Shown here: piece by piece, positions 2,151-64,000 of the stretch | Layout of the letters: every line of letters begins with the position of its first letter | Numbering within the stretch: the first letter of the stretch is position 1 | NCBI GenBank assembly: GCA_003024785.1 | Contig: PUQB01000364.1 | Location: 129,996 to 193,995 of the forward strand | Source: Selaginella tamariscina | Taxonomy: Eukaryota > Streptophyta > Lycopodiopsida > Selaginellales > Selaginellaceae | Reading direction: 5' to 3' | DNA length: 64,000 nucleotides | The notes under the pieces: generated by a model | Told to the model about the DNA's origin: nothing | Databases searched by the model: none | What the model saw: the letters and a program-made list of their open reading frames with translations, nothing else | Position numbers and translations under genes: made by a program

Positions 2151-2151
2151 A

Positions 2152-16384: not shown

Positions 16385-16545
16385 ATGCATGTTATAATTA
16401 AAATGGGCATGGGTATAGTCCCATTTCCTAATAATTAGTAATTTTAGCTATTTAATTAGCATTTTCTAATATTAAAGGAATATTCTTTAGAATATATGTT
16501 TGAAAACAGAATATTCTTTAGAATATTCTATTTTGTATTCGACCC
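16385..16545. repeat. Left terminal repeat of element copy A
   Basis: It starts GCATGTTATAATTAAAATG and closely matches 52,007-52,167. The first 25 bases also match the terminus at 58,846 (GCACGTTGTAACTAAAG), which is the opposite end of another copy. The subterminal region is full of GGAATATTCTTTAGAATAT-type short palindromes, also found in diverged form near 59,010-59,040. Confidence 0.65.
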
Positions 16546-16899
16546 TTTAATAAATTATAGCATTCATTGAACAAAAATTAATAACATTATAAAAGTAGAA
16601 GGTATTAAATTATATAATATATTGCCTAATATAACAATTAAGGAAGAGCATAAGAGGTACATTATATAAATATTGATGTTGTTATTAAAATATTAATATT
16701 TAAATATAACATTATTAATTAAAAATTTGTAGTAGTAATAATATATATATAAATACCCTATAATAATATAGTCAATCTTCCATATCATTTTTTAAATTTA
16801 TATAGTTAAGTAAACAATTTGGTACTATTATTAAAGAGTTTATAATAATTATGAATATTAAATATATGATATTTTATAATTTTGTAATTGCTTTAAGCT

Positions 16900-19800
16900 T
16901 CAGAAAACATACATTCCCTTGCAGTTTTTAATCGTGACTTTATCAACGCTTCTTGACATCCACCCATATCGAATGGATTTAACATTTATAAAACATGCTG
17001 GGTCTTTTTATTGGGAGACCATGTTTTCTCTAGGCATCCATTATATCTTTCGCTCTCCTTCTCGTGTCGCCTTTTTTGTGGTTTGAACCATGCAACCTTA
17101 ACAATACTATTTTTTGTGTTACTTCAGGTGTGTCGATAATTTGACCCATCCAAATAGGCTGATTATATGACACATCTGGAGTAATGAGAACCATCATTAG
17201 TTTTTGAAGATCCTGGCAGCAATCAAAGTATGCTTTAGGTTTTTGGTTCTTTGTCCAACAAAGTGTGGGGTTTGCACTTCCACATCACTACTGGCTTCTA
17301 TGTCGTCTGTGCTCAGTGATGTCATTTCAATCTCCTCTCGCCACCTTGTTTTAGGCCAAAAAGGGTGTTGCAATTCTGTACTTGTGACAGTAGGCCCTTC
17401 CAACTCTCGAACAACAGTCTCCCAATAGTTGACCACATGCTTATATAGTTTGAGTAACCAGTTGCCTTATCAGAATTCTTTGGCATCGATTTTGAACCCA
17501 TGCCACATATTTTTTGATGCCATCAATAATAACCTCTTGTTCCTTGAGCTGGGCACTCAATGGAATAGGGTCTGGTTGTCCTTCTGGGAGAAGTGGCTTT
17601 CCATTCCTCACTTTTGAAGAGCATTAACCCCTCTTTCGTAACCACTTGCTCTGATGGCCGTAACTTGTACTGCATAATAGGTATACCATCTCGTATAGAA
17701 AAAGAATTGTAGCGGCACAAGGTGACCAACTAAAGAATCACTTTCTTTTATATACTCCTTGAGAAATTTTTTGAAGTCTGGCACCTCAGTCACAAGCAAA
17801 GCACAACTTTTTTTGGAGATGCAATTTTCAAAAAGATTCATCATATGCGGTAAGGTAAGTGCACTTGTCCTTTTTGTAGAGTTGGAGACCTTGCTGAAGA
17901 ACGCATCAATATCTTCATGAGTGTGACCAACCATAAGGAAACTGAGCGTGATTGTCAAACACACCTTTGGCAACAAGCATTGACAAGTATGCTAGCACAT
18001 ATCTAGAAAATAAAAGTAAGTATGAGCTTGAGAAACCCTTAAGTAAAATGATTTACCTATTTTTGTTCTCGCCTGCCAATTATCCATCTGTAAAAGCAAA
18101 TGACGAGGAAGCTTATTTGATGTTGAGGACACATGTACACTATTTGAGCTAGATCCCTCCACTGAACCTGAACTCTCAACAGGCCATCTGTTTTTTGTGC
18201 AGCTGTGTGACAATGCCTCTCATATTCCCAAGTAGCCTCAAGTGCAGACGTGTTCATGAGAGCATTATGTAAAGGTTGAAGGTGTTGTTTCTTCACTTTG
18301 AGATCACTGATAGGACTTGTCTGTGAGTGGGCTTCAAGGTTTCTGAAACACATGCCAACGACCCAATAGTGAAATTGGAGTCGCTAGACCAATGTGGAAG
18401 TGAAAAGTGTCCATATGACTAACCGTGTCCATGTGTTAGCACACCTGTCAATGAAATCGGAAGTTTCATGACATTTCCAAGGCACTTTGGTGTTGCAAAA
18501 GCTTTGGAATGCTGGTCTTTGAATGATCCATCTTGTCATGGATCAAGCACAGTACTCTGATGGGCGTGACACAGAAAGCATGCGGTGTGCATAGTACTGA
18601 GACCGGCAAGTTTGTTGTGCAATCATGTGGGCCTCCATCTTCTTTTGAATGGCAGTGATCTCCACCAAGGTTTTGCACAAGCCTCTGCAGCCTTCAATGA
18701 TGTACAAGTGTCACACTTGGAAAAGCTAGAGTGTTTTGCAATCTCCACATCCTTAAAATGAGTATTCCATATGTTAAGGTACCAGTGCAGATTGCTTGGA
18801 GCCCCATCAAACTGAGGCACTTGTTCACATGTTCACACAGCTTCAATTGAGTGTAGATCGAAGGCAAAGCCTTGAGATTTTCCCTGACCCCTGCATTTGT
18901 GGTTTGGCATTTGTGAGGCATCCTGTCTGCATTTGCTTCCACAAAAGCCTTGAGTATCTCTATGGCTGCCATAATGTGAGAGCGGGTTTTGACCAAGTGA
19001 GTGTTCCCATGTACTGAGGTTCGCGCTCCATCTAACCACTCATCCCTCCGACGGTAGAACGTGGTCTTTGGGATCCCGTATATACTGTACCAAGCTTTAA
19101 CACCTTATTAAATACCATGGATATAACCTGTGTCCGAGGCCATTCCATCAATACACCCAGTTAGTGCAACATATACAAATTCATGCCTTTGCTTTTGGGT
19201 GAGCGTACGAAAGACATGTCTACATTGGGTAATTTCATTTCGGTCTGCCATCTGACAACACTTCTTCTTGCAACAATCAATTGTGGAAATGCTTGTAACA
19301 CTTTCGGAAGATGTAGGATCCATCTTGACCCTCTTGCTGAAACTTGCAGGGGAAGATCTACAACCCATAAATCACCTTTTTTTTACAATAGGACCAATGT
19401 AAGGAACCTCTTCAAATATGAGTTGTTCTTCCGAGTTGTTATTATTGAAATCCAACCCAGAATATGTTGAACCATCTTGCCGTCTTAATTCAAATGTTTG
19501 CCACCTCACGAGGGATCCAGGATGCAATGTGCCATTAGGTGAAACCTCTGTCACAACTACACCCACGAAGTCGAATCCTAGTTTCTCTTCTGACACTGCT
19601 TCCATTGGAATAGCTGTGATGATGCTCTCCCAACCTCAATCTCATGAAGAAAGAGAATCACCTCATCCATCACAAAAGCAAGCCATTATCTAGTAAACTT
19701 GTTTACTATTTGTTTGTGACTTTGCATATTCTGTGTCAGCCTTGACTTCATCCAAATTTCACAATACAGGAGAACCCTCCTCAAATTCCATTCTTGGAAC

Positions 19801-19959
19801 CTTAACATGCTTGTAAATGGTATTCACCCATACATACACACAAGATTCTTGAGCAATATTGTGACATGATGCATTATCATCTCGAACTTCCACAGTTCCA
19901 GTGCCAACTATCTCGTTGTTCCGAAGAAGACATACTTTATCTCCAGTATTAAACATCAT
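16900..19959 (-). pseudogene. DUF7869-like transposase candidate, copy A
   Basis: This is a degenerate homologue of the gene at 52,508-55,596. The N-terminus (19,959-19,760) begins MMFNTGDKVCLLRNNEIVG. A Cys-rich stretch (IDCCKKKCC, about 19,265) follows, then a segment at 18,996-18,694 that is in one frame here but broken in copy B, containing the zinc-like FSKCDTCTSLK at its junction. The HDKMDHSKT motif lies near 18,540 and GHTHEDIDAFFS near 17,910. The central DNCxGENKN motif is destroyed by a two-base loss (18,080), so the copy is dead. A 50-60 base intron (17,998-18,052) separates this motif from the HTHEDID exon. The role is inferred: three conserved acidic motifs in an RNase-H-like arrangement suggest a transposase or nuclease. 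Confidence 0.6.
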
Positions 19960-20089
19960 AAATAATTATATTATTTATGATATTGTTTATACAATATTTC
20001 TAAGAAATCATAACTGCGGTTGTTTAATAATATGCATGTGCAATAATACATAATTATGTATAGAGATAATAACTCATGCTTCATTAATA

Positions 20090-20990
20090 TAACTGATGGG
20101 CGGGATTAATCTCGCCCACGACTCCCTCACGAGGAACGATGGGCGGGATTAATCCCGCTGTCAACTCTACCCCTTCGGAGTGAGTCGGCGGGATTAATCC
20201 CGCTGCTGACTCTACCCCTTCAGAGTGAGTCGGGGAGATTAATCCCGCTGACAAAGCTACCCCTTTGGAGAGAGTTGACTGAATTAATCCCGTCGTCAAC
20301 TTTACCCTTTCGAAGAGAGTCGACGGGATTAATCTCGCCACCGATTCCCCGGCGAGGAAGAATCGGTGGGATTAATCCTGCCGCTGGATCCTCCTCGTGG
20401 AGAGAGGTGGCGGGATTAATCCCGCTGCGGACTCCCTCAAATGAGGAGAGAAGCGACGGGATTAAGATTAATCCTGCCACCGGATCTTTCTTGTTGGAGA
20501 GAGGCGGCAGGATTGATCCCACCATTGGATCTTCCTATCCTGCCGCAACTCCCTCCGACGAGGAAGAGGGGGGCGGAATTAATCCTACTCACAACTCTTA
20601 CGACGGGGAATAGGCGGCGGGATTAATCTCGTCCACAATTCTTTTCGAAGCTATGATTTCAATGAGATCTCAGGATAAATCCTGCCTACAAATTTAAAAC
20701 AGGGAAGTGATGGCGAGATTAATCCACCCCCTTCTCTGCCTTTTAAAATGGTTGGCGGGATTAATCCCGTCGACAACTCTTTTTATTAAATTCAGGTAAC
20801 TCTTTATTAATTAAGAGAGTTATATATGGGATTAATCCCGTTGCTCTTTTCAGAGACGGAAAAGCATTGCCCGGACTAATTCTGCCAGACTATCAAAAAG
20901 ATGGTGGCGGGATTAATCCCACCACCTCTTCTAAAAGGCGAAAAAGAAAATGGCCGGATTAACCCGCCGCCTCGGCTAACCGAAAATATT
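20090..20990. repeat. Palindrome array 1, copy A
   Basis: About twenty copies of a palindrome related to GGCGGGATTAATCCCGCC are spaced by some 20-40 bases. Many spacers are themselves self-complementary (for example ACTCTACCCC...GAGTGAGT), giving hairpins between palindromes. The array begins about 130 bases upstream of the DUF7869-like start codon. Most copies differ from the consensus by C-to-T or G-to-A changes at CpG (CCCGCT, TCTCGCC, CCCACC), as expected from methylation decay. It is degenerate compared with the copy at 55,730. Confidence 0.9.
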
Positions 20991-20999
20991 AAGTTAAAA

Positions 21000-22340
21000 G
21001 GATATTTAAATGGGATAAATCCTTAACGGAATATGTAATTCTAATGCATTCCTAAACCCCTAAATTTTAATTTTAAGAAAGAATGTAAGAGAGTGAATAT
21101 TTATAACTATATCTAAATTTGTTTATAATACTTATTTGTAAACAGCATTGAAGACGCCGTGTTTTCTATAAACAATAGCGCACCCAATTTTATGTCGCTC
21201 CTGAGCTGATTACTATGAAGAAAAAAGAAAATCTTAAGAGTGAAAAATAAAAGAAATGAAGAAACCCTTACCGGAGAAAGAACCAGATCTGAATTAGAGT
21301 GGGAAATTAAATGCATTTTCAAATTTACATGTCAGACTGACAATACTTATGTCAGAAATTTAAATTTTTGAAAAGAACAGAAAATAAAATTTAAGATGAG
21401 TTGACACAAATAACCGACACTCTGACATATATACTCTTCAATTCTAATGAGTGTTTTAAAATTGCATTTAATGTCATTTAAGTGATTCAAGTTGTTTAAT
21501 ATTACAAAATTTTAATAATTATTCTACATTCTTAATATTCCAGTATATATTATTAAGTTTGTATTATATATATAATATATATATATATATAATATACACA
21601 CAACTTACACAATAAATAAATTGATATATTATTATGTATTATTTAAAATATATTCATAGTCTGTTTATTATTATTATTTTCTTAATTACTTGAGTAATTA
21701 ATTTACATTTTCTAATATTAATGGGATATTCTTTATTATTTTCTTAATATTCAAAGAATATTCCAATATTAAACATGATTATAATAATTAAATTAGTCTT
21801 ATTCTTAATTATTTCAGTAATTATTCTACATTTGTATATATTAATGGGATTTTCTCAATTAATTTCTTATTATTCAAGAATATTCCTATGTTAACCTTAT
21901 TATCAATATTAAATTAATATATATTATTAAAACTATATATGACTATATATTAGATAAAATGATATATATTATGTATAATTTAAAATATGTTCATAGTGTG
22001 TATATTAATCATTTTCTTAATTACTTGAGTAATTAATCTTCTTTAATTAATGGGATATTCTTTATTATTTTCTTATTATTCCAAGAATATTCTAATATTA
22101 AACATAATTATCATAATTAATTTAGTTAATTATTTCAGTACTTAATCTACATTTGTATATATTAATGGGATTTTCTCAATTAAATTCTTATTATTTCAAG
22201 AATATTTCAGTGTTAAACCTTATTATCAATATTAAATTAATATATTATTAAAACTATATATGGTTATAATATTAGATAAAATATTATTATGTATAATTTA
22301 AATATGCTCATAGTGTGTTTATTAATATTATTTTCTTAAT
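21000..22340. repeat. AT-rich internal region with AATATTC-type repeats
   Basis: A block containing AATGGGATATTCTTTATTA, then AAGAATATTCCAATATTAAA, recurs near 21,718, 21,838, 22,044 and 22,163, so the tract is a diverged tandem repeat of two alternating sub-blocks. It matches 57,110-57,640 in copy B. Flanking non-repetitive sequence (21,000-21,500) also matches copy B and has no credible gene. Confidence 0.7.
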
Positions 22341-22539
22341 TATTTGATGTTTGTTTGCACACATATATAAACACAATCATAAATTTATATATATATGTGC
22401 ACACGCATTAGAAGCACTTATAGAGACACATATGCACACATGCACATTGCACTAAACCAAACTTGAGAAATATGTTGCTTTTTTTATTGAAAAACATCAT
22501 GTTCAACGCATGTATGATGTATATGTACTCAGTCTATGT

Positions 22540-23310
22540 GTATGTAACACATTGAATTTACACATGTAATATATATGTATGTCTGTGTGTATACACATGT
22601 GTATGTATATATGTGTACTAATATATGCAATGTGTACGGATTTAATTTGTTAACACTCTCTCTCTTCTCTCATACATTCAGTGTCACCATGCATAATCCC
22701 TTCTCTCATACATACACACCACGTATAATCATGATCCATAATATATAGCCTGTCTCTCTTCTCTCATACATACATATCATGCATGATCCCATAATATGTA
22801 CTGATGTTACAATATTATGTACTATGTATGACATTGTATATGTGTATGTAATATGTATATACTAATATATGCAATGCGTAAAAAATTAATTTTTTAACAC
22901 TCTCTCTTATTTCATACATACACACCATGCATGATCCATCCTAAACCCTAAACCTAAACCCTAAACCTTAAACCCTAAATCCTATGTAACACATTGAATT
23001 TACACATGTAATATGTATGTATGTCTGTGTGTATACACATGTGTATGTATATATGTGTACTAATATATGCAATGTGTATGAATTTAATTTGTTAACACTC
23101 TCTCAATTGTCTCATACATACACACCATGCATGATCCATGTTAATATGTACTATCTCTATATCTCTCAAACATACACACCATGCATGATCCATAATATGT
23201 ATTGTCCTCTCTTCTCTCATACATACACACTATGTATGATCCATAATATGTATTGTCTCTCTTCTCTCATACATACACACCATGCATGATCCATAATATG
23301 TACTCTGTCT
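22540..23310. repeat. Tandem CATACATACACACCATGCATGATC-type repeats with telomere-like core
   Basis: Variants of TCTCTCATACATACACACC followed by ATGCATGATCCATAATATG recur about ten times. A TTTACACATGTAATATGTATG block is repeated at 22,557 and 22,994. At 22,940-22,981 lie several CCTAAACCCTAAACC units, an interstitial plant-type telomere repeat. The block is shared with 57,880-58,560. Confidence 0.8.
22940..22981. repeat. Interstitial telomeric repeat
   Basis: About six imperfect units of CCCTAAA, the complement of the TTTAGGG plant telomere. Copy B has a shorter perfect version at 58,330-58,354 in the same position of the element, so it is part of the element and not a chance insertion. Degenerate TTTTAGGGTTT units also occur at 23,512-23,600. 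Confidence 0.85.
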
Positions 23311-23639
23311 CTATACTAATAAGTATATGTATAATACTATGTGTGTATATATGTATTGCTACACATGAAACTTTAACACTCTCATGGACACACACATGTT
23401 AAACCCCTGCATGATTTATATTTTTAGGGTGTATGTAATACACCCACACACACGCACACGCTGATAATATAATGAAAGAATATTCGTTTAGGGCAAATTT
23501 ATATTTTATTTTTTTAGGGTTTAAGTATATTCTTAGAAGGAATATTTGATTAAGGTTAATATATATTCTATTCCTTTTAGGGTTTAGGTATATTTTTAGG
23601 GTTTCAAGAAGCAAGGCGGCAACGGCAGCTGTGAAATCT

Positions 23640-24500
23640 CCCTCTCTCTCACACACATGTGATCTCTCTCTCTCTCTCATGCACACTCCTGAGTTTATTT
23701 ATTTATTTTTATTCCCACATACATTTATATGTGTGTATTTTAATAATATAATTTATTTATCTATCTCTCGCACACACACGGACACTCCTATACACACACA
23801 CACACACACACATATACCTCTGTGTGTGTGTGTGTTTGTGTATCTATATAATTTTATTAATTTATTAATTTTATCTCTTGCACACACACGCACACTCCTA
23901 TTTATCTGTATGATTTTATTTGTTTCACTTACACACGCATATACACGATATACATATAAACATATATATATATATATATACCTATATACATATATACATA
24001 CATATATTATGTGTACCAGTATATATATGTGTGTGTGTGTGTATTTGTAAATTTTATTGATTTATTAATTTTATCTCTCACACACACACGCACACTTTTG
24101 TATATATATATATGTGTGTGTGTGTTTATTTATCTGTATGATTTTATTTGTTTTGCTCACACACGCATACACACGATATACATACACACACACACATATA
24201 TATATACTTATGTACATATACATACATATATTATGTGTACTAGTATCTGTATAATTTTATTTATTATTTATCTCTCGCACACACAGTATATACATATACA
24301 TATACATATATACACATATATATGTGTGTGTGTTGTGTATCTGTATAATTTAATTTATTTAGCACGATATACATATACATATATATATGTGTATGTATCA
24401 CAATAATTTATCTGATTTGTCTATCTCTAGCACACACACACACACTCTCCTACACACATACACACACACACATATATATATATGTGTGTGTGTGTGTGTG
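23640..24500. repeat. CA/TG and TA microsatellite tract
   Basis: Alternating runs of CACACACA, TATATATA and TGTGTGTG with partly palindromic arrangement. A unit of about 250 bases (TATGTGTGTG, TTATTTATCTGTATGATTTT, CTCTCxCACACACACGCAC) is repeated roughly three times. Open frames across it are low-complexity artefacts. Confidence 0.85.
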
Positions 24501-24501
24501 T

Positions 24502-25185
24502 AGCGGCGGGATTAATCCCACCGCTCATCCGTCACCCTCATGAGTGACGGGATTAATCCCGCCGCTGAGGCCCTTCATGCAGGTCATGAGCGGCAGGATT
24601 AATCCCGCCGCCGAGGCTCTAAAAATAGCAGCGGGATTAATCCCACCACCCATGGCCTGGACGGAGGGCAGCGGGATTCCATGGCCAGCCACTAAGGCTC
24701 TAACAATATAGCGGCGGGATTAATCCCGCCGCCCATGGCCTGTGCGGAATCGGGCGGATTAATCCCCGCTCATGGCCTACGGGAAGGGCCTAAGCGGCGG
24801 GATTAATCCCGCCGACCCTTCTATGCCTGGTGGAGGGATAAATCTCATCACTTTTCTTTTTTTCCTTCATTGGTGAGTCAAACCAATCCCAAACTTCTCT
24901 GTCTGAGATGTAGAAGGTTTACAACATATCAATGGAGGGGACTGAGAAGGGTGGCGAGATTCATTTCACCATCCCTTACATGGTGGGCGAGATTAATCCC
25001 GCCACCTTTCTGGAGCCACTGAAGAGGTGTGCCAAATAAATCATGCCCAGTTCTCTCTGAGACCGAGAAGGGTGCCGGGATTAATCTTGCACACTCATTC
25101 AAGGGCTCCAGAAAGGTGGCGAGATTAATCCCGCCCACCATTTCAGGAGGCATAGAAGGGGTGGCGGGATAAATCCCGCCCCACC
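24502..25185. repeat. Palindrome array 2, copy A
   Basis: About fifteen copies or relics of GGCGGGATTAATCCCGCC lie between 24,502 and 25,185, and an outlier half-site (AATTAATCCCGTCCAC) sits at 25,376. Perfect copies occur near 24,714 and 24,794. Spacers differ from array 1 (for example GCCCATGGCC, AAGGGGTGGC), so the palindrome is conserved while the spacers are not. The array lies upstream of the ParB-like gene, mirroring array 1 upstream of the DUF7869-like gene. Confidence 0.9.
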
Positions 25186-25297
25186 TTACATGTAAAATAT
25201 ATGTGTATTAATATATATAAGTTGCATACCTCATTTTATTTACTTTTATCATCTTATCATAATATTTGAGTAAAAGCCAGTAAGCTATGTAAAATTG

Positions 25298-25376
25298 TCC
25301 AAAGCTCACATTTGTAGTAGTTCTAAAACTAAATGTTATCTGTCTTTTGCACACTATCACAAACGTGAGCTTTGGA
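25298..25376. promoter_or_regulatory. Conserved hairpin upstream of the ParB-like gene
   Basis: TCCAAAGCTCACATTTGT (25,299-25,315) is complementary to ACAAACGTGAGCTTTGGA (25,359-25,375), with a loop of about 43 bases. The same structure is kept in copy B2 (arms 63,803-63,822 and 63,863-63,883), where paired arm positions differ from copy A, including compensating changes. It lies about 180-250 bases before the start codon. Its role as a promoter, origin or protein-binding site is inferred from position only. Confidence 0.6.
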
Positions 25377-25552
25377 TAATTAATCCCGTCCACTTCTCTC
25401 TGAGACAAAGCAGGGTGTATGTGAATTTATCAGTGTATTATTTTTGTATATTCGGGTTTATACAAGTGTATGTGCATTTTTATATGATTTGTTTCATAGT
25501 GTATTATTTGTAGAAGGACGATTTGATCAAACAAGGAGATTCAGTTATTAGT

Positions 25553-28500
25553 ATGGAGTCATCGTCAAATTCTGGGTAAGAATTAAAATAAAATCTGTTA
25601 TATTCGAACATGTGCTTGACGAACTAATCATTTTTGTATTCAGATGTGGAATTGAGGTAACATTGAAGATGAGAGCAGGAGAAGAGATGGGCAAGGGTAT
25701 TTTGGAATCAACTTGGTCATATTTCAAACTAAACAGGAAGCGCATTGGAACAACCATGGTTGTTATCAAACTAACCTCTGTCACATCGCATGGCCAAGCA
25801 AAACAATGGAAAGTAAATGTGCTAGTAAAGCATCTGAAAGCATGCTACGAACCCAGATTGAACGATGCTCGACACATATGCCTTGTTCCATCCAATGTCA
25901 CGTTCTCGGATCCAGAGGTCGCCAGTTACAACATTAATCTCGGGTGGTCTTGTTGACTTGTGGATAATGATGTTCACGTGTTCACTAATGATGTTGACCG
26001 TGGAGTTCTTCTTCAACTCAATGAAAGCCCATTTATGGAGGGGATCCAATTAGATGTCTACTTCAAAGATCTTCAGACTCATCGAGTAGGTGTATTCTCA
26101 GCAGAGGTTGCTTCACAATACAGAACATCCACAAGTGGAGCAATCGTCCCTCTTCACATTAAAGAAGAACACAGCGACATCATAAGGGAGATTGAGAGGG
26201 TGGCTCGGTCTCAGATTCTTTACAGATCACATTCAATTTGCTTAGAAAACTTCGGGAGTTGGAAGTGTGTGCCGAGAACATTAGAACAACATCAATTGGG
26301 ATAACACATGTTGATTCGGATCGTAAAAGAAAATCATTTGTCGTTTTGTCAGTTGCACCTGTGGCATCCCATGCTACAATAAGCCACAAGGAAATGATGT
26401 TAGATGATAAAATTTATGAATGTAGGGTTAAGTATTGCAGCGTCAGCCCAAACTTCAATTACAGGCCACTCAACCAGGAACGTGTAGCTGAGCTCATGAA
26501 GAAGATGAAGGACAACAATTCTTACACTGTTCCACATAATGTTGTTTGTGCCCATACTACGAAAGAAACAAAGGCGCTGAGAAAGTGTGGATCACAACAG
26601 CAAAACAAATCATGAAGATTCAGACAGAGAATAGAAAATCAATCAAGTATTACATCATTAATGGCTAGCACACAATAACGGCAGCTCAATGACTTCTCGA
26701 TGGCCACAATAAAGGAACCATAGTAACAAAACTTTTCAAGTATACCCGTGAGAAGCTGACAAAAAGATCGGCGTTTTTAGCTAAGCTGAATCTCACAATC
26801 GAGCAGTACCACAAGTTATCGGCGGAATGGGACGCTGCCGACACCAACCACTACAACAGCAAAATATGGGAGAAGTTCAAACACATGCGAGCTGTGTGGG
26901 AATCTCTTCAGTGACCACAAAGAGCTACTACAGGGAATACACAATGTGCAATGTACCGGGTAAGTAAATTGTCTGGGCAGGATTTATCTCGCCGGTATAT
27001 TAATTTGTCTCTTTTTTTTTCAGAGAGTTAAAGAAATTGTAGCAGTTGATTTTGCCCATGTGGGCGGGAAGGAAACATCCTTTCTGATGATGTTGATTTC
27101 TTATTCCGAGATAGGATCTTTGCCAAATGGTTGGGGATTATGGAATCCTTTTCAAAAGAACACTGAAGAAGAAGTAGACAAGTGAAGGGGAGCTGTCAGA
27201 GAAGTCTGAAAAGAAACCCAGTAAAACGCCAAAGGCTAAATCTGTTCAATCTACAAACAACGATTTCAAGCTCACATGGTTGAAGCCTTTAAATGGAACA
27301 ACGATGGAGGAGATGGAAGTTTTGTCTGATTTGGTAATTGATGAAAAACTACAGATTAACAACAGCAGCCCCACCTCTCCTTTTCATCTCAAGGCAATGG
27401 AGTTGAAGACGGTCAGGCACTTCAAGGAGTGGTTGGGAATACACTGCCACAAACTAGGTTGGACCTCGGCATCAACATACAAAGAGGTCAGCAAATATTT
27501 GCATGTGACAAATGATGATATGCTTGTCGAATGGGTGAATCAATCGGAAGATTTGGGCAAAAATCTATTGCACGCCAACTCCAAAAAGGAGAACATTGCG
27601 ATGACGCCTTCTCTTATGGCAGTCCTTCAGCAGCGGAGAACCGAGTTGAATCTTATAAAGGAGGATGCTACAAATCACGACAAGCCCTATAGAATGTTTG
27701 TTGTTGGATTCGGAGACTTTATGAGGTAACATCACTGTTGTAGGAAACCGTTTCAGTTGTTCATGATAGATCGGCGGGTGTCAAAAAATCCTTCGACAAA
27801 CAAGACACTAGAGGATTTGGTGGAGAAACTTAGCCGTGCAAGCATGTACAAAGAAGGTATTTATTATTGAATTCATGCTTGCACTCTTCACTGATACCTA
27901 CATTTTCAGGTATTTATTTCTTGATTCTTGCTCACGTCACTGATACTTTTACCTTTGCCTTCGCCAAGAAGAATAAACATCATTGGACAGGATTTTATAT
28001 GAATGATGCTAATCCGAAGTGCATTGATACGGTTGTTCACTTGGTTATTAGGAATGCGCCAAACAATTTCAAACTTCCAAATGACTGCCTAGGCATCTGT
28101 TTGCACTCCAACGGGCCTGAACCTCCATCCGATACATCGATAGCTGAGAAGGGATGTATTCGGCAATGTATGTTATCCAAACATTACAAGTCAAGCGGCA
28201 TGGAGCATCGTCAACTTGATCAGGGGTCCGCACAGTGATGCATGGGTTTTTGACTACTGCACTAGGGGGTCTGTCTTGAAGGAGTGTTACCTTCGGGATA
28301 CATGTGTGTTTGCCGTTGAAAAGGATAAGACCATGGTTGAGGACCTAAACAAGTGGATAGAAAGGTTCTCAACTGACTACCCCAACAAACCCATACAGGA
28401 GTATTTGGGAGAAGTGCAATAACTCTGAAGATGAATCTGGTTCAATGTCGGAGTTGGAGGACAAACATCAATCAAACATTAGACCAGAAGTCATCTTGAG

Positions 28501-28645
28501 GAGTATAGAACATTCACACACTCCATTACCCATGGAAACATCAACAGAAGATACAGAAGATCATGAACCATCTCACAAGTGGCCTAGACCTTCTTCGCCT
28601 CACTCAAAAGGTAATAGCAAAGAAGAATTGTTAATGAGTTCTTAG
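25553..28645 (+). pseudogene. ParB/sulfiredoxin-like and methyltransferase-like protein, copy A
   Basis: The start MESSSNSG is followed by a donor at 25,576, an acceptor at 25,643 and then CGIEVTLKMRAGEEMG. Introns with clean GT-AG ends also lie at 26,960-27,023 (64 bases) and 27,857-27,909 (53 bases). Around 26,450-26,690 are RPLNQERVAEL and, one frame on, IKYYIINGxHTITAAQ. This order (substrate-loop helix, then I-x-G-x-H/R-x-x-A-A) is that of the ParB N-terminal/sulfiredoxin fold. Near 28,250-28,340, WVFDYCTRGSVLKECY and CVFAVEKD resemble SAM-binding motifs of an amino-methyltransferase placed after the catalytic part. Stops replace Q and R in the ParB-like core and there are several indels, so it is dead. 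No DPPY motif is seen. Function is inferred. Confidence 0.55.
26960..27023 (+). other. Short intron carrying a relic of the 18-bp palindrome
   Basis: The intron begins GTAAGTAAATTGTC and ends TTTTTTTTTCAG. Its centre, GGGCAGGATTTATCTCGCC, is one array palindrome with a few changes. Copy B2 keeps it at 62,229-62,248 (GGCGAGATAAATCCCGCCC in plus orientation), so it was present in the common ancestor. Confidence 0.7.
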
Positions 28646-28787
28646 AGTGACGAATAGTTGTAAATGAGTGTAACATAAGGCATTTTTGTATATTTCGTTT
28701 ATATTTGTACAGAAAATAAATTTTCAAGGATTAATGAAGCTTTTAGTTCAAACATGGGTCACACATTAACAAGGTAAATAATATACC

Positions 28788-29031
28788 TTGATAATTATAA
28801 GGTCAGCTAATTATCATTTTGTAAATGTAATGAAAACAGTTGAGAACATGGATTTTCAAGGTAAGAGAGGGGTTTGGCAAAAATTTCTTGTGCCACATGT
28901 CAGAATGACAGATTTCATGCATGAAATGGATAATAATGCAGCTCAAAACATGGTTACCATGGGGACCACTTCAGTTTTTTCATCACCATTTCTATTGGCT
29001 TCAGTTCTGAAATCACTTTCTTCAACGCCTT
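28788..29031 (+). pseudogene. HAD phosphatase-like gene, 5' fragment, copy A
   Basis: The fragment reads MDFQ, then VRMTDFMHEMDNNAAQN and LASVLKSLSS, matching the N-terminal region of the gene at 59,326-60,410. It is cut at 29,031 by the LTR retrotransposon; the catalytic part is absent from this copy. The frame over SVLKSLSS is continuous here, whereas copy B2 lacks one base at this point. Confidence 0.6.
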
Positions 29032-32190: not shown

Positions 32191-32191
32191 G

Positions 32192-34190: not shown

Positions 34191-34199
34191 GTTGAGGGT

Positions 34200-36231: not shown

Positions 36232-36234
36232 ACT

Positions 36235-38730: not shown

Positions 38731-38780
<50 letters not shown>

Positions 38781-52006: not shown

Positions 52007-52170
52007 ATGCATGTTGTAACTAAAATGAGCATGGTTATAGTTCCATTTCTTAATATTAGCAATTTTAGCTATTTAATTAGCATTTTCTAATATTAAAGGA
52101 ATATTCTTTAGAATATATGTTTGAAAACAGAATATTCTTTAGAATATTCTATTTTGTATTCGACCCTTTA
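52007..52170. repeat. Left terminal repeat of element copy B
   Basis: Starts ATGCATGTTGTAACTAAAAT. Matches 16,385-16,545 base for base over long runs, with the paired GAATATTCTTTAGAATAT motifs. It abuts the minisatellite ending GTGGATGT. Confidence 0.65.
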
Positions 52171-52507
52171 ATAAATTATAGCATTCATTGAACAAAAATT
52201 AATAACATTATAAAAGTAGAAGTATTAAATTATATAATATATTGCCTAATATAACAATTAAGGAAGAGCATAAGAGGTACATTATATAAATATTGATGTT
52301 GTTATTAAAATATTAATATTTAAATATAACATTATTAATTAAAAATTTGTAGTAGTAATAATATATATATAAAATCCTATAATAATATAGTCAATCTTCC
52401 ATATCATTTTTTAAATTTATATAGTTAAGTAAACAATTTGGTACTATTATTAAAGAGTTTATAATAATTATGAATATTAAATATATATTTTGTAATTGCT
52501 TTAAGCT

Positions 52508-55500
52508 TCAGAAAACATACATTGCAGTTTTGTTAATTGTGACTTTATCAACGCTTCTTGACATCCACCCATATCGAATGGATTTAACATTTATAAAACA
52601 TGCTGGGTCTTTTTGATTGGGAGACCATGTTTTCTCTAGGCATCCATTATATCTTTCGCTCTCCTTCTCGTGTCGCCTTTTTTGTGGTTTGAACCATGCA
52701 ACCTTAACAATACTATTTTTTGTGATTACTTCAGGTGTGTCGATAATTTGACCCATCCAAATAGGCTATTATATGACGCATCTGGAGTAATGAGAACCAT
52801 CATTAGTTTTTGAAGATCCTGGCAGCAATCAAAGTATGCTTTAGGTTTTTGGTTCCTTTGTCCAAAAAGTGTGGGGTTTGCACTTCCACATCACTACTGG
52901 CTTTATGTCGTCTTGTGCTCAGTGATGTCATTTCAATCTCCTCTCGCCACCTTGTTTTAGGCCAAAAAGGGTGAATTCTTATTACTTGTGACAGTAGGCC
53001 CTTCCAACTCTCGAACAACAATCTCCCAATAGTCGACCACATGCTTATATAGTTCTGAGTAACCAGTTGCCTTATCAGAATTCTTTGGCATCGATTTCCC
53101 ATGCCACATATTTTTTGATGCCATCAATAATAACCTCTTGTTCCTTGAGCTGGGCACTCAATGGAATAGGGTCTGGTTGTCCTTCTGGGAGAAGTGGCTT
53201 TCCATCCTCTCCACTTTTGAAGAGCATTAACCCTCTTTCGGTAACCACTCCTGCTCTGATGGCCGTAACTTGTACTGCATAATAGGTATACCATCTCGTA
53301 TGGAGAAAAAGAATTGTAGCGGCACAAGGTGACCAACTAAAGAATCCCCCTTTTATATACTCCTTGAGAAATTTTTTGAAGTCTGGCACCTCAGTCACAA
53401 GCAAAGCACAACTTTTTTTGGAGATGCAATTTTCAAAAAGATTCATCATATGCGGTAAGGTAAGTGCACTTGTCCTTTTTGTAGAGTTGGAGACCTTGCT
53501 GAAGAACGCATCAATATCTTCATGAGTGTGACCAACCATAAGGAAACTGAGCGTGATTGTTTCAAACACACCTTTGGCAACAAGCATTGACAAGTATGCT
53601 AGCACATATCTAGAAAATAAAAGTAAGTATGAGCTTGAGAAACCCTTAAGTAAAATGATTTACCTATTTTTGTTCTCGCCTGCACAATTATCCATCTGTA
53701 AAAGCAAATGACGAGGAAGCTTATTTGATGTTGAGGACACATGTACACTATTTGAGCTAGATCCCTCCACTGAACCTGAACTCTCAACAGGGCCATCTGT
53801 TTTTTGTGCAGGTTGCTGACAATGCCTCTCATATTCCCAAGTAGCCTCAAGTGCAGACGTGTTCATGAGAGCATTATGTAAAGGTTGAAGGTGTTGTTTC
53901 TTCACTTTGAGATCACTGATAGGACTTGTCTGTGAGTGGGCTTCAAGGTTTCTGAAACACATGGCTAACGACCCAATAGTGAAATTGGAGTCGCTAGACC
54001 AATGTGGAAGTGAAAAGTGTCCATATGACTCACAACCGTGTCCATGTGTTAGCACACCTGTCAATGAAATCGGAAGTTTCATGACATTTCCAAGGCACTT
54101 TGGTGTTGCAAAGAGCTTTGGAATGCTGGTCTTTGAATGATCCATCTTGTCATGGATCAAGCACAGGTACTCTGATGGGCGTGACACAGAAAGCATGCGG
54201 TGTGCATAGTACTGAGACCGGCAAGTTTGTTGTGCAATCATGTGGGCCTCCATCTTCTTTGAATGGTAGTGATCTCCACCAAGGTTTTTGCACAAGCCTC
54301 TGCAGCCTTCAATGATGTACAAGTGTCACACTTGAAAAGCTAGAGTGTTTTGCAATCTCCACATCCTTAAAATGAGTATTCCATATGTTGTTGAAGGTAC
54401 CAGTGCAGATTGCTTGGAGCCCCATCAAACTGAGGCACTTGTTCACATGTTCACACAGTTCAATTGAGTGTAGATTGAAGGCAAAACCTTGAGATTTTCC
54501 CTGACCCCTGCATTTGTGGTTCGGCATTTGTGAGGCATCCTGTCTGCATTTGCTTCCACAAAAGCCTTGAGTATCTCTATGGCTGCCATATGTGAGAGCG
54601 GGTTTTGACCAAGCGAGTGTTCCCATGAACTGAGGTTCGCGCTCCATCTAGCCACTCATCCCTCCGACGGTAGAACGTGGTCTTTGGGATCCCGTATATA
54701 CTGTACCAAGCTTTGAAGCAGATGGCCACCTTATTAAATACCATGGATGTACTCTGATAACCTGTGTCCGAGGCCATTCCATCAATACACCCAGTTAGTG
54801 CAGCATATACAAACTCATGCCTTTGCTTTTGGGTGAGCATACGAAAGACATGTCTACATTGGGTAATTTCATTCCGGTCTGCCATCTGACAACACTTCTT
54901 CTTGCAACAGTCAATCGTGGAAATGCTCGTAACACTTTCGGAAGATGTAGGATCCATCTTTACCCTCTTGCTGAAACTTGCAGGGGAAGATCTACAACCC
55001 ATGAATCGCCTTTTTCTTACAATAGGACCAATGCAAGGAACCTCTTCAAATATGAGTTGTTCTTCCGGGTTGTTATTATTGAAATCCAACCCAGAATATG
55101 TTGAACCATCTTGCCGTCTTAATTCAGATGTTCGCCACCTCACGAGGGATCCAGGATACAATGTGCCATTAGGTGAAACCTCTGTCACAACTACACCCAC
55201 GAAGTCGGACCCTAGTTTCTCTTCTGACACTGCTTCCATTGGATTTATAGCTGTGATGATGCCTCTTCCGACTTCAATCTCACGAAGAAAGAGAATCACC
55301 TCATCCATCACAGCAGGCAAGCCATCATCTGGTAAACTCGTGCTACTATTTGTTTGTGACTCTGCATATTCTGTGTCAGCCTTGACTTCATCCAAATTCC
55401 ACAATACAGGAGAACCCTCCTCAAATTCCATTCCCAGAACCTCAACATGCTTGTAAATGGTGTTCACCCATACGTACACACAAGATCCTTGGGCAATATT

Positions 55501-55596
55501 GTGACATGATGCATTATTATCTCGAACTTCCACAGTTCCAGTGCCAACTATCTCGTTGTTCCGAAGAAGACATACTTTATCTCCAGTATTAAACAT
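52508..55596 (-). pseudogene. DUF7869-like transposase candidate, copy B (near-intact)
   Basis: 339 codons are open from the start MFNTGDKVCLLRNNEIVG (55,596) to 54,577: a small beta-rich N-terminal region, a Cys/His cluster (CCKKKCCQMADRNEITQC) and a helix-turn-helix-like GIPKTTFYRRRDEWLDGA. A one-base loss then shifts the frame (copy A is intact there). 54,322-53,660 is open for 220 codons with HDKMDHSKTSIPKL and, at its end, MDNCAGENKN. A 54-base intron (about 53,609-53,662) follows. 53,605-53,075 is open for 176 codons with LSFLMVGHTHEDIDAFFS. The tail exons (53,157-52,803 and 52,756-52,508) are basic. The three Asp motifs fit a DDE-like RNase-H fold; DUF7869 is named from memory of these motifs. 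Three or four frameshifts remain. Confidence 0.65.
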
Positions 55597-55729
55597 ATAA
55601 ATAATTGTATTATTTATGATATCTGTTTATGCAATATTTCTAAGAAATCAATTACGGTTACTTAATAATATGCATATGCAATAATACATAATTATGTAGA
55701 GATAATATCTCATGTTTGATTAATACAAC

Positions 55730-56420
55730 TGATGGGCGGGATTAATCCCGCCCACGAATCCCTCCGACGAGGAACGGTCGGCGGGATTAATCCCGCCGAC
55801 TCAACCCCTTCGGAGAGAGTCGGCGGGATTAATCCCGCCTTCCCTCAAAAGAGGGCGGGATTAATCCCGCGCGCTCCCTTCGGGGAGTCCGGCGGGATTA
55901 ATCCCGCCGCCTCTCCCGAGAGAGTCCGGGATTAATCCCGCCGCATCCTCCGGGAGGAGTCGGCGGGATTAATCCCGCCGGACTCCCTCAGGAGGAGAGG
56001 CGGCGGGATTAATCCCGCCGGCTCTTCTTGTCGGAGAAGGCGCGGGATTAATCCCGCCCACTTCTTACGACGGGGAATGGGGGCGGGATTAAACCCGCAC
56101 ATAACTCTCTCCAAAACTATGATTTCAAAGAGATCTTCCTGTCCCAAATCTTTAAAACAGGGAAGTGGTGGCGAGATTAATCCCGCCACCCCTTCTGCCT
56201 CCTAAAATGGTTGGCGGGATTAATCCCGCCGACAACTCTTTCTAATAAATTCTGGTAACTCTTCATCAGTTGAGAAGGTTATCGACGGGATTAATCCCGC
56301 CACTCTTTTTCAGTGGCGGAGAAGCATTGCCCGGAGATGATGGTGGGCGGGATTAATCCCGCCACCTCTTCGAAGAGGCGAAAAAGAAATGGCCGGATTA
56401 ATCCCGCCGCCCGGTTAACC
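55730..56420. repeat. Palindrome array 1, copy B
   Basis: About fifteen copies of GGCGGGATTAATCCCGCC, most of them perfect, begin 134 bases upstream of the DUF7869-like start codon. From 55,733 to 56,100 the period is about 35-48 bases; after that copies are sparser (56,167, 56,213, 56,286, 56,345, 56,392). Spacers are different from each other, yet nearly all are self-complementary (GACTCAACCCC...GGAGAGAGTC, CTCCCTTCGGGGAG, CCTCCGGGAGG). A single strand would fold into a chain of hairpins. Confidence 0.95.
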
Positions 56421-56429
56421 TAGAATATT

Positions 56430-57720
56430 AAGTTAAAAGGATATTTAAACGGGATAAATCCCTATATATTAATCCTAATGCATTCCTAAACCCTAAATTG
56501 TAATTTTAAGAGAGAATGTAAGAGAGTGAATCTTTATAAGTATTTAAATTTGTTTATAATACTTACTTGTAAACAGCACTGAAGGCGCCGTGCTTTCCTA
56601 TAAAATAGCACCCAATTTAATCTGCTCCTGATGATCACTATGAAGAAAAAAGAAAATCTAAAGAGTGAAAAATACAGAAATGAAGAACCCTTGCCGGAGA
56701 AAGAACCAGATCTGAATTTGAGTGGGAAATTAAATGCATTTTCAAATTTACATGTCAGACCGACAATACATATGTCAGAAATTCAAATTTTTTAAAAAGA
56801 ACAGAAAATAAAATTTAAGATGAGTTGACACAAATATCCGACACTCTGACATATATATCTCCAGTTCCAATGAGTATTTTAAAATTGCATTTAATGTTAT
56901 TCAAGTGATTCAAGCTGTTTAATATTACGAAATTTTAGACTATTTTCTACATTCTTAGTATTCAAGTATATTATTATTATTATATATATATATAATATAT
57001 ACTTATACAATAAATAAATTGATATATTATTATGTATCATTTAAAATATATTCATAGTCTGTTTATTATTATTATTTTCTTAATTACTCGAGTATTTAGT
57101 TTTCATTTCCTAGTATCAATGGGATATTCTTTATATTTTTTAATATTTGAAGAATATTCTAATATTAAACCTGATTATCATAATTAAATTAGTCTTGTTC
57201 TTAATTATTGCAGTAATTATTCTACATTTGTATATATTAATGGGATTTTCTCAATTAATTTTTATTATTTCAAGAATATTCATGTTTAAACCTTATTATC
57301 AATATTAAATTAATATATATTATTAAATTATATGATATATATATATTTTATTATATATATTTAAATATGTTCATAGTGTGTATATTAATATCATTTTTAA
57401 TTACTTGAGTAATTAATCTTCTTTATATTAATGGGATATTCTTTATTATTTTCTTATTATTCCAAGAATATTCCAATATTAAACATGATTATGATAATTA
57501 ATTTAGTTAATTATTTCAGTACTTGAATTATATTAATGGGATTTTCTCAATTAATTTCTTATTATTTCAAGAATATTTCAATGTTAAACCTTTTTATCAA
57601 TATTAAATTAATATATATTATTAAAACTATATATGGCTATAATAAAATCATATATTATTATGTATAATTTAAAATATGTTCATAGTGTGTTTATTAATAT
57701 TATTTTCTTAATTATTCGAT
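56430..57720. repeat. AT-rich internal region of copy B
   Basis: Matches 21,000-22,340. Contains the repeated AATGGGATATTCTTTATTA / AAGAATATTC blocks near 57,117, 57,237, 57,430 and 57,534. No gene is seen. Confidence 0.65.
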
Positions 57721-57879
57721 GTTTGTTTTGCACACATATATAAACACAATCATAAATTTATACACGCATTACAAACTTACAAACACATATGCACACACAT
57801 GCACAACCCTAAACCAAACTGAAGAAATATGTTGCTTCTTTATTGAAAAACATCATGTTCAACGCATGTATGATATATG

Positions 57880-58845
57880 TACTCAGTCTGTGTGTATGTA
57901 AACATTGAATTTACACATGTAATATATATGTATGTCTGTGTGTATACACGTGCATATGTATATATGTGTACTAATATATGCAATGTGTACGAATTTAATT
58001 TATTAACTTTCTCTCTTCTCTCATACATTTAGTGTCACCATGCAATATCCCTTCTCTCATATATACACATCATGCATAATCCCTTCTTCATACATACACA
58101 CCATGCATGATCATGATCCATAATATGTGCATGTGTCTCTTCTCTTATACATACACACTATGCATGATTCATAATATGTATTGATGTTACAATATTATAT
58201 ACTATGTATGACGTTGTATATCTGTGTATAATATGTGTATGTATATATGTATACTATATATGCAATGCGTAAAAATTAATTTTTTAACACTCTCTCTTCT
58301 CTCATACATACACACCATGCATGATCCATCCTAAACCCTAAACCCTAAACCCTACACATTTGAATTTACACATGTAATATGTATGTATGTTTGTGTGTAT
58401 ACACGTGTGTATGTATATATGTGTACTAATATATGCAATGTGTATGAATTTAATTTGTTAACACTCTCTTAATTGTCTCATATATACACACCATGCATGA
58501 TCCATAATATGTACTATTTCTCTTCTCTCATACATACACACCATGCATAATCTATAATATGTACTCTGTCTTTATACTAATAAGTATATGTATAATACTA
58601 TGTGTGTATATATGTATTGCTACACGTGAAACTTTAATACTCTCATGGACACACACATGTTAAACCCCTACTGATTTTATTCTTGGGGTGTATGTGATAC
58701 ACCCATACACATGCACACACTGATAATATAATGAAAGAATATTCGTTTAGGGCGAATCTATATTTTATTCTTTTTAAGGTTTAAGTATATTCTTAGAAGG
58801 AATATTCGATTAGGGTTAATATATATTTATTCCTTTTAAGGTTTA
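57880..58845. repeat. Tandem CATGCATGATC-type repeats and telomeric repeat, copy B
   Basis: Shorter version of 22,540-23,600, with the telomere-like CCTAAACCCTAAACCCTAAA at 58,330-58,354. It ends in TTTTAAGGTTTA at 58,845, where the next terminus starts. Confidence 0.8.
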
Positions 58846-59060
58846 ATGCACGTTGTAACTAAAGTGGCATGATACGTGAAAATGGGAATATAAAATAATT
58901 ACTAATTAATACTTAAGTTTTAATTATTAATTAATCATTTAATTAATATGTAATTAAGCCTTAAATATTATTAATTAATTAATTAATCCTTCAATAACCT
59001 TACTTAGTAAGGAATATTCCTAAAATATCTTAGAATATTCATATTATTCTAAAAATAGTT
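58846..59060. repeat. Right terminal region of element copy B2
   Basis: Terminal GCACGTTGTAACTAAAG, then AT-rich TAATTAATTAATTAAT runs and AGGAATATTCCTAAAATAT. The GAATATTC motifs parallel those just inside the left termini. Confidence 0.55.
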
Positions 59061-59325
59061 TACAATAATGAAGAAATACTATCAAACATAATTACAAATG
59101 AAATCATTTTCTTATCAACATGTTAATTTTTTTATAAATACTTTCTTCCTATCATACAAAGAAATCTTATTTTGTCTAAATCATCACTCTCCGGATTAAT
59201 CAAATCATTTTGGTCAATATCTTGATGTTGTTGCCACCACTTAACACTCTCACGAATGCAATTGGGAGTTGCCATCCTTGTTAATACATAAGATGTGATA
59301 AGAGAAGGTCTGCATAAAGGCTCAT

Positions 59326-60360
59326 CTAAAAATGACGTTCCTTAAGAATAATATTATAAAGCGCCCGGTTGCTATCCTTCATTTTATAAAATTCAATATC
59401 ACGAGAAAGAAAAGCTTCAGGAAATGTATGATACGGTGGATACTGCTCACAAAAATTTTCGAGATTCTTCTTTCTGAGGCACGTATCCAAGTAGTTCACT
59501 AGCTCATCCATGATATCGGTATCAGAATATGGATCGAAAGTGATTGGATGAATACAAGCAATGTTTTGGTTGAGCATAGCCTTCTGAGGAGAGTCGTCTA
59601 CTACTAACATCTGTGCGTTCTTCATTATCCTTAAGCGACTGATCTCCCCATGAGTCCCAATTATTCTTTCATTCTTGAAGAAGTACGGCTTGCTTTCCTT
59701 TCTTATATTGTGAAATTCGAGAGGTTTATAACATATTCGCTGGTCAAAAATCCAATCTTTACGAATCACCTCTTCTGCAACACTACAATGTTTCTTAAGT
59801 AAATTCAACAGCGGTGTTAAGTTATGAATCTGCATGCATGACCAAATCCCCACAAGCGCACCCATCTCCTTAAGCTTTTGAAAGAGACGATCCAACCCTG
59901 GACGAAAAATAATATCATATCGAAATTTACCATGACAAGGAATGAAATCTCCTTGTTTGATTTTTTTTCCTATCCTCGGGCCTTTGTCGATGAAGCAGAA
60001 CACCATTGACATCCAACAACACAATATGGCCATGAGTAACATGAGATAGCGTTGCCTCTTGAATACTTTGCAAATCACTTGTTTGCTCCCTTTCACATTT
60101 ATCCGTTGCCACTATCTCGTTGCCTATCCCTTCATCATTTAATTGTACATCATCCTTACAAGATTCAGATATTGCATGCGCTGAAGAAATTGATTTCGGA
60201 ATGAAGCCAATAAAAATGATGATGAAGTGGCCCCCATGGTAACGATGTTTTGAGCTGCATTATTATCCATTTCCTGCATGAACTCTGTCATTCTGACATG
60301 TGGCACAAGAAATTGTCGCCAAACCCCTCTCTTACCTCATGGCAATGCTGAAAATCCATG
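59326..60360 (-). pseudogene. HAD-superfamily (FCP1/CTD-phosphatase-like) protein, copy B2
   Basis: Minus strand. N-terminal part near 60,300-60,120: TEFMQEMDNNAAQNIVTMG, then (one base lost) ISSAHAISESCKDDVQLN. Motif I is HIVLLDVNGVLLH at about 60,025-59,990, where the usual DxDGT/V has N at the third position. A one-base slip in an A-run (about 59,965) moves the frame to 59,960-59,326: FRPGLDRLFQKLKE, then VGIWSCMQ (motif II Ser), and NAQMLVVDDSPQKA (motif IV, DD). This set and its spacing match the FCP1-like (NLI-interacting) phosphatase fold. If active it would dephosphorylate a protein Ser/Thr, but the substrate is unknown. One upstream and one internal frameshift make this copy inactive as read. 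Confidence 0.65.
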
Positions 60361-60561
60361 TTCTCAATTTTTCATTACATCTGCAAAATGATAATTAGCT
60401 GACCTTAAAATTATCAAGGTATATTATTTACCTTGTTAATGTGTGACCCATGTTTGAACTAAAAGCTTCATTAATCCTTGAGAATTTATTTTCTGTACAA
60501 ATATAAAAAAATATACAAAAATGCCTTATGTTACACTCATTTACAACTATTCGTCACTCTA

Positions 60562-63500: not shown

Positions 63501-63657
63501 CCAAGTTGATTCCAGAATCCCCCTGCCCATCTCTTCTCCTGCTCTTGTCTTTAATGTCACCTCAATTCCACATCTGAATACAAAAATGATTAGTTCAAGT
63601 ATCCGAGTATAACAGATTTTATTTTAATTCTTACCCAGAATTTGACGACGACTCCAT
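60562..63657 (-). pseudogene. ParB/sulfiredoxin-like and methyltransferase-like protein, copy B2
   Basis: Start MESSSNSG at 63,657, intron, then GIEVTLKTRAGEEMG. The ParB-like core is clearer than in copy A: RPLNQERVAELMEKMKDD (about 62,740) and, one frame on, YYIISGQHTITAAQ with RLLENTTKERWQQN (about 62,560). A 295-codon open segment (62,249-61,362) includes a Lys-rich linker (KKPSKTPKAKS) and helices such as KTVRHFKEWLGIHCH. The C-terminal part (61,232-60,562) has NITSQAARSIVNLIRGP, then WVFDYCTRGSVLKECY and CVFAVEKDK, like motifs X-I-II of amino-methyltransferases, and an acidic Ser/Glu tail. No DPPY motif is visible, so methylation activity is doubtful. Several one-base shifts remain. ParB-methyltransferase fusions are known from phages. 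Confidence 0.55.
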
Positions 63658-63798
63658 ACTAATGACTCGATCTCCTTGTTTGATCAAATCGTCCTTCTGC
63701 AAAATAATACACTATGAATAAAAATTATATAAAAACGCACACACACTTGTATAAACCCGAATATACAAAAATAATACACAGAGAGAAGTAGACGTAAT

Positions 63799-63887
63799 TA
63801 ACTGTCCGAAGCTCACATTTGTGTTAGTGCAAAAGAAAGATAACATTTCGTTTTAGAACCACCACAAATGTGAGCTCTGGACAGTTT
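63799..63887. promoter_or_regulatory. Conserved hairpin upstream of the ParB-like gene, copy B2
   Basis: AACTGTCCGAAGCTCACATT (from 63,799) pairs with AATGTGAGCTCTGGACAGTT (ending 63,886). It is the reversed counterpart of 25,298-25,376 and lies about 150-230 bases upstream of the start codon. Confidence 0.6.
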
Positions 63888-64000
63888 TACATAGATTCCT
63901 AGCTTTTACTCGAAATATTATGATAAGATGATAAAAGTAAATAAAATGAGATATGCAACTTATATATACTAATACACATATATATTCACATGGAGTGCGG

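Follow-up and report, generated by a model that had tools for sequence, protein, structure and literature searches.

A giant DNA transposon of Selaginella tamariscina, most likely of the Sola1 group, with accessory genes and paired palindrome arrays

The stretch of DNA analysed here, called the window throughout, spans 64,000 nucleotides of the Selaginella tamariscina genome (assembly GCA_003024785.1, contig PUQB01000364.1, positions 129,996 to 193,995, forward strand). Three copies of one DNA transposon, denoted A, B and B2, reside in it. The element carries a transposase gene marked by the Pfam domain DUF7869, two arrays of a short palindrome, GGCGGGATTAATCCCGCC, and, on the opposite strand, a gene for a ParB-like/methyltransferase-like protein followed by a phosphatase gene. 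The features of the three copies are the following.

16385..16402 (+): copy A, left terminal inverted repeat, two mismatches to the boundary motif
16893..19956 (-): copy A, transposase gene (DUF7869), homologous to that of B, decayed through indels and stop codons; gene stop placed by eye
20099..21026 (no strand): copy A, array 1 of GGCGGGATTAATCCCGCC-like palindromes, starting some 150 bp upstream from the transposase ATG
24505..25180 (no strand): copy A, palindrome array 2, ending about 375 bp upstream of the ATG of the second gene
25553..28645 (+): copy A, ParB-like/methyltransferase-like gene, intron-containing and decayed; domains named by eye
28848..29031 (+): copy A, first part of the NIF phosphatase gene, cut by a long terminal repeat (LTR) retroelement; ATG placed by eye
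52007..58845 (+): copy B, left part; resumes outside the window, from C687:207,635 to about C687:215,055
52007..52024 (+): copy B, left terminal inverted repeat
52501..55596 (-): copy B, transposase gene, ATG at 55,596, 54-bp GT-AG intron at 53,610-53,663; gene end and intron placed by eye
55735..56465 (no strand): copy B, palindrome array 1
58846..64000 (-): copy B2, in reverse orientation, right part with the accessory genes; extends across Ns as far as C687:207,634
58846..58863 (+): copy B2, right terminal inverted repeat
59132..60359 (-): copy B2, NIF (FCP1-type) phosphatase gene; ends placed by eye
60562..63657 (-): copy B2, ParB-like/methyltransferase-like gene, intron-containing, reading frame broken in places; start placed by eye

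A, B and B2 are copies of the same transposon. In a self-comparison of the window, A 16,370-20,425 corresponds to B 51,992-56,018 (93%), A 20,187-23,586 to B 55,735-58,845 (80%), and A 25,189-29,028 to B2 63,992-60,178 in inverted orientation (89%). An exact boundary motif stands at B (52,009) and, inverted, at B2 (58,848); the one at A (16,387) has two mismatches. Self-comparison and motif scan bear out a preliminary description of this DNA, which had proposed three related copies with a common boundary. The scan is weak when taken alone, as 6 matches were found with three mismatches allowed against 1.6 expected, and 2 of 100 shuffles reach 6. Two of these matches, at 28,742 and 60,448, lie inside A and B2 at homologous places, and were discarded as termini. 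The left ends of A and B and the right end of B2 stand as first drawn. Position 29,031, originally taken as the end of A, does not, being the junction with the LTR retroelement inside the phosphatase gene; the right terminus of A is therefore outside the reach of the window. The last 1.3 kb of the element were sought in 1-52,006, and nothing was found except one 64-bp AT-rich match. Beyond the window B2 runs through 5,771 Ns (64,001-69,771 in extended window coordinates) up to its left end at C687:207,634. The junction of B and B2 is not a simple nested insertion, because B2 is flanked by no 4-bp duplication and the halves of B on either side of it, mapped onto A, have some 400 bp in common (85% alike). 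Short CCCTAAA-type runs, similar to plant telomere repeats, lie between the two gene groups (22938-22985 and 58337-58356).

The exact boundary motif occurs 2,123 times (1,057 and 1,066 in the two orientations) in the 300.7-Mb genome (1,391 contigs), and its backward control never. The first eight places listed (L001-L008) all match the ends of B2: L001-L005 and L008 over about 1.5 kb at 96-98%, whereas L006 and L007 are the two ends of one short element, 80-86% similar to the ends of B2. The terminal inverted repeats measure 18 bp (ATGCAYGTTGTAACTAAA), and the two ends of B2 are identical at 17 of 18 positions. Complete copies range from 13.6 to 14.8 kb. Five were delimited, the last three by reading 5-6 kb at the right end and about 1.3-1.6 kb at the left.

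C1:917,618-931,173: full copy, 13.56 kb, flanks TTAT/TTAT
C2:121,721-135,520: full copy, 13.8 kb including 2.5 kb of N, flanks ATTA/ATTA
C1:1,804,054-1,817,694: full copy D8, 13.6 kb, flanks ATAA/ATAA
C1:796,442-811,239: full copy D3, 14.8 kb, flanks ATTA/ATTT
C1:3,119-16,906: full copy D1, 13.8 kb, flanks not exact

Miniature inverted-repeat transposable elements (MITEs) of the same family exist. Fifteen short elements of 229-243 bp were found by selecting for both exact ends and a length of 227-257 bp; they consist of some 110-210 bp of each element end joined together, and are 77-88% similar to B2. The 4-bp flanks directly outside ATGCAYGTTGTAACTAAA are identical in 10 of 13 independent MITEs and in the first two full copies, thus in 12 of 15 insertions, once the 17 pairs had been reduced by merging L039 with L032 and L038 with its reverse, L030. 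Shuffled pairing of the flanks yields a mean of 1.5 identical 4-bp pairs (16 rows, only the first merger applied). Over all insertions outside the window, 13 of 18 feature exact 4-bp target duplications; in the window, neither B (ATGT and AAAT, with ATGT two bases further on) nor B2 (TTTA and ACCA) does. The duplicated sequences vary, and include TTAA, ATAC, TTAG, CTAT, CAAA, TTGT and ATTA among others. The copy on C2 is inserted in another copy of the same element, and the flanks of the host copy join at reference position 3,707-3,715, which represents an empty site. The search for full copies, target-site duplications and empty sites suggested at the outset thus delivered all three, and the element moves by a mechanism based on terminal inverted repeats and target duplications. 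Insertions into its own copies (L020, L021, L024; C2:121721-135520) generate end-to-end and nested arrangements.

DUF7869 spans a region within 53,075-54,322 in copy B. By its predicted structure, with an RNase H-like DDE/D core, it is an RNase H-fold DDE/D transposase. The best solved-structure matches are integrases and Mos1, and a Foldseek search of PDB gave no match at E 0.001. Acidic residues at D169/D172, D327 and D367/D369 are near-invariant in 29 relatives, and the DUF7869-like transposase first proposed from the reading frames is upheld. Viral contigs scanned with the transposase profile gave 10 pattern matches, none of which was confirmed.

In the profile searches that had been proposed, the HAD phosphatase of the preliminary description is borne out as a NIF protein, with PF03031 in B2 at 59,326-60,096 (E 1.5e-8, 34.9 bits against a cut-off of 21.8). 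The catalytic motif of NIF/FCP1-type phosphatases is DxDx(T/V); DVNGV is found instead in copies C2, D1, D2, D3 and D8. No relatives of the phosphatase were detected at E 1e-3 among 1,003 candidates, nor in a PDB sequence search at E 0.1. The product of the second gene looks ParB-like and methyltransferase-like on the basis of motifs identified by eye in B2 (RPLNQERV...YYIISGQHTITAA and DAWVFDYCTRGSVL...FAVEKD), so that this part of the early annotation stands at the level of motifs. A Pfam search of the composite protein returned nothing at E 10, for ParB and methyltransferase profiles alike, and methyltransferase motif IV is not recognisable. No relatives were found at E 1e-3. A protein search of the genome for the second gene produced 7,976 first-look candidates; 65 of these were scored, and yielded 143 matches. 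Residues 22-58 of the second gene and 108-144 of the transposase are identical at 11 of 37 positions (E 1e-4 in a single comparison); this short N-terminal likeness may perhaps represent a common domain.

Substitutions relative to B2 were counted by codon position; all comparisons share B2 as reference, and are not independent. Third positions account for 14/25 (C2), 24/42 (C1), 29/64 (A) and 5/8 (B) changes in transposase exon 1, and for 43/84 (C2), 41/82 (C1), 84/172 (A) and 70/146 (B) in the second gene. In the last piece of the latter, which includes motifs I-II, there is little excess (7/17, 6/16, 16/43 and 15/41). Values for the phosphatase are 6/7 (C2), 7/8 (C1) and 13/32 (B), the gene being absent in the comparison with A, and an excess is seen against C1 and C2. 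Taken as a whole, the counts indicate that the proteins were under constraint in the source lineages, least clearly so at the methyltransferase-like end.

The palindrome arrays, too, proved real. A scan of the window with the 16-bp palindrome core, allowing up to 2 mismatches, found 35 matches where 0 were expected, and two arrays per copy, at roughly 3.7-4.6 and 7.5-9.2 kb counted from the left end, are present in 5 of 5 copies examined. The GGCGGGATTAATCCCGCC-like sites are spaced mostly by 40-46 bp (73 of 94 spacings under 60 bp). Exact 18-bp GGCGGGATTAATCCCGCC sites number 27,128 genome-wide, against 0 for the control. Of the mismatches in 166 sites (five copies plus three right parts), 36 fall on the six positions of the central ATTAAT and 247 on the other twelve. 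The same sites exhibit no excess of CpG transitions (46/664 versus 99/1,328). The arrays are candidate targets of the ParB-like protein.

Movement of the element may be envisaged as follows. The transposase, by the acids of its DKMD, DNC and HTHEDID motifs, would cut at the terminal inverted repeats of its own, non-autonomous and MITE copies, and the excised copies would be pasted into staggered 4-bp AT-rich targets; MITEs would be moved in trans by the DUF7869 enzyme. With less confidence, and by analogy, the ParB-like/methyltransferase-like protein could bind the arrays upstream of both divergent genes, and mark or unsilence the promoter region. The NIF phosphatase-like protein might, speculatively, adjust transcription of the element or of the host. 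Tentatively, then, the transposon may carry a parS-like system, in which the ParB-like/methyltransferase-like protein recognises GGCGGGATTAATCCCGCC and protects or re-marks the promoter region against silencing, with the phosphatase as third partner; we regard this as possible, though doubtful.

The accessory genes might conversely be passively captured cargo, and the palindromes a mere tandem satellite to which no protein binds. This reading, also one to be entertained with reserve, agrees with the failure of profiles to recognise ParB and methyltransferase domains, and with the variation of array sites devoid of CpG excess. It fits poorly with the excess of third-position changes, seen in the second gene and, for C1 and C2, also in the phosphatase, and with arrays that hold the same two positions in every copy examined and adjoin both gene starts in A, the copy in which distances to the ATGs were measured. 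A similar gene, moreover, is carried by a Sola1 element of a brown alga (PMC12477816, as far as the consulted portion of that report goes).

The element is a giant cut-and-paste DNA transposon, and most likely belongs to the Sola1 group. Several superfamilies can be set aside. PiggyBac and Kolobok elements duplicate TTAA, while the duplications observed here vary beyond TTAA. CACTA (EnSpm) elements have CACTA termini and 3-bp duplications; here the termini read ATGCAYGTTG, and 3-bp duplications were found in 0-2 of 16 rows at each offset from 0 to 6. Mutator-like elements generate duplications of 7-12 bp (PMC10741241), and at 7 and 8 bp, the lengths covered, none was found in 16 rows at any of the same offsets. 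In the excerpts available of two surveys, Sola elements are described as having DDD transposases, 4-bp duplications and terminal inverted repeats of 11-1,124 bp, as being known in Physcomitrella, and as measuring mostly 2-9 kb, some exceeding 15 kb (PMC10741241; PMC9033089). The Selaginella element shares with them a predicted RNase H-like DDD/E core, 4-bp duplications and terminal inverted repeats, 18 bp long, that fall within this range; it differs in being larger than most Sola elements and in carrying accessory genes (PMC10741241). The closest parallel is Sola1-1_Ec32 of Ectocarpus, a giant Sola1 of 21.5 kb with an opposite-strand gene for a 1,104-aa protein featuring ParB-like and DNA methyltransferase domains (PMC12477816, in the portion consulted). 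The Selaginella element is filed as Sola1-like because its layout matches that of Sola1-1_Ec32: an opposite-strand ParB/methyltransferase-like gene is present and linked, its identity resting on motifs, and the feature is seen in one described Sola1 without being a defining trait of them all. The claim that the gene order was possibly undescribed and unfamiliar from any named superfamily is, accordingly, not supported. The element differs in measuring 13.6-14.8 kb, in carrying a NIF phosphatase-like gene and paired palindrome arrays, neither of which is mentioned in that portion, and in having no recognisable motif IV. Among the papers listed by a literature search for giant transposons with accessory genes, the Ectocarpus report was the one counterpart; among those listed for Sola1 in mosses, a single land-plant review was relevant. 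No earlier description of the phosphatase gene or of the paired palindrome arrays was found in literature searches that covered their sources in part, which is not proof of absence from print; apparently, the phosphatase gene and the paired GGCGGGATTAATCCCGCC arrays upstream of both genes are new here. ParB-methyltransferase fusions of phages (PMC12704722, in the excerpt seen) likewise unite these two kinds of domain in a single protein, to the extent that the motifs can tell; a tblastn search of 50,697 phage records gave no match at E 1.

A rather unlikely alternative is that the element represents a still unnamed superfamily, that of DUF7869, and that its likeness to Sola1 stops at duplication length, size and accessory gene. 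DUF7869 is listed in Pfam as a domain of unknown function, no paper on or naming it was found in the literature searched, and placement in Sola1 rests on features rather than on comparison of transposase sequences. Against this, 4-bp duplications, a DDE/D-type core, size and the opposite-strand gene fit together with Sola and Sola1-1_Ec32, as far as the sources consulted describe them.

Whichever the name, transposase, second gene and phosphatase belong to the same element. Exact 24-base tags occur 1,843 times genome-wide for the transposase and 1,532 times for the second gene; such counts may exceed the distinct loci, because there appear to be duplicates among the contigs (one tag position is common to C113 and C114). 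Linkage was counted on the first 100 transposase tags (up to C113:1,202,347) and on 85 of the first 100 second-gene tags (C1-C113). In 58 of the 85, a transposase tag is found on the opposite strand and the expected side, at a distance of 6-16 kb (median 9.3 kb), while in 10 of 85 a partner is found at 6-16 kb in any other arrangement. Exact tags undercount the pairs, because the unpaired second-gene tag at C1:6,820 sits in the copy at C1:3,119-16,906, the left end of which has transposase-gene sequence and misses the exact tag. That the two halves occur mostly as separate elements with termini of their own, the finding which the preliminary description named as fatal to its single element, is not what was observed; complete copies that hold both gene groups between two termini exist, as postulated for one element of more than 12.6 kb with outward-facing cargo and transposase genes. 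That nesting brought a DUF7869 transposon and a distinct ParB/NIF element together in copy A could be invoked for the 27 of 85 second-gene tags that lack an exact transposase tag in the expected place and for the truncated copies that exist, but is extremely improbable. Independent elements were rejected on the pairing in one orientation. Two complete copies, read throughout except for 2.5 kb of N in one and holding both gene groups between termini with matching duplications, also speak against them, as do a third copy with matching duplications at both ends and the transposase-gene sequence at the left end of the copy with the unpaired tag at C1:6,820.

The transposon lies among other repeats. 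The LTR retroelement that interrupts A occupies 29032-36237; its LTRs (29,032-29,460 and 35,809-36,237) measure about 430 bp and are 90% alike. From its gag domain (PF03732 at 33,480-33,965, minus strand) we take it to be of the Gypsy type. No common duplication was seen by eye at its flanks. AT-rich repeats cover 1441-8400, 13962-16384 and 36237-38944, with about 18-21% GC over much of 2,001-8,000 and 14,001-16,000; copy A has landed in one of these repeats, at 16,384. They include a tandem unit of about 3.25 kb (4,272-5,140 matches 7,528-8,401), and inverted arms (5,638-7,589 versus 13,962-15,888, 93%) that enclose a more GC-rich interior. The 453-codon open frame at 10664-12025 (+) between the arms has a sub-threshold match to a hAT dimerisation domain (E 0.011, 15.9 bits versus 21.4), and frame and arms may together be another transposon, one with long inverted repeats. 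Nested inverted repeats (39,232-39,566 versus 41,242-41,576, 96%) form a palindromic structure of about 4 kb at 38482-42357; 47,119-48,062 is related, in inverted or direct orientation, to 50,323-51,279; and a tandem repeat of about 84 bp (51287-52006) lies immediately left of B. Rfam and tRNA scans of the window found none.

DUF7869, a Pfam domain of unknown function, is here tied to a predicted DDE/D transposase with defined ends and target duplications. The link between ParB-methyltransferase-like proteins and giant Sola1 elements is extended to a second genome, in more than 1,000 copies, with a concrete candidate target site. VANDALs are Mutator-like transposons, and their VANC proteins are not ParB-like. 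VANC proteins bind noncoding tandem repeats of their own transposons, leading to loss of silent marks (PMC10398659, in the excerpt available). The likeness lies in a sequence-specific accessory protein acting on noncoding tandem repeats of a short motif, and is meant as a functional model, no kinship being claimed. If the tentative parS-like reading is true, a transposon with a sequence-specific epigenetic factor of its own would parallel the VANC systems by means of an unrelated protein family.

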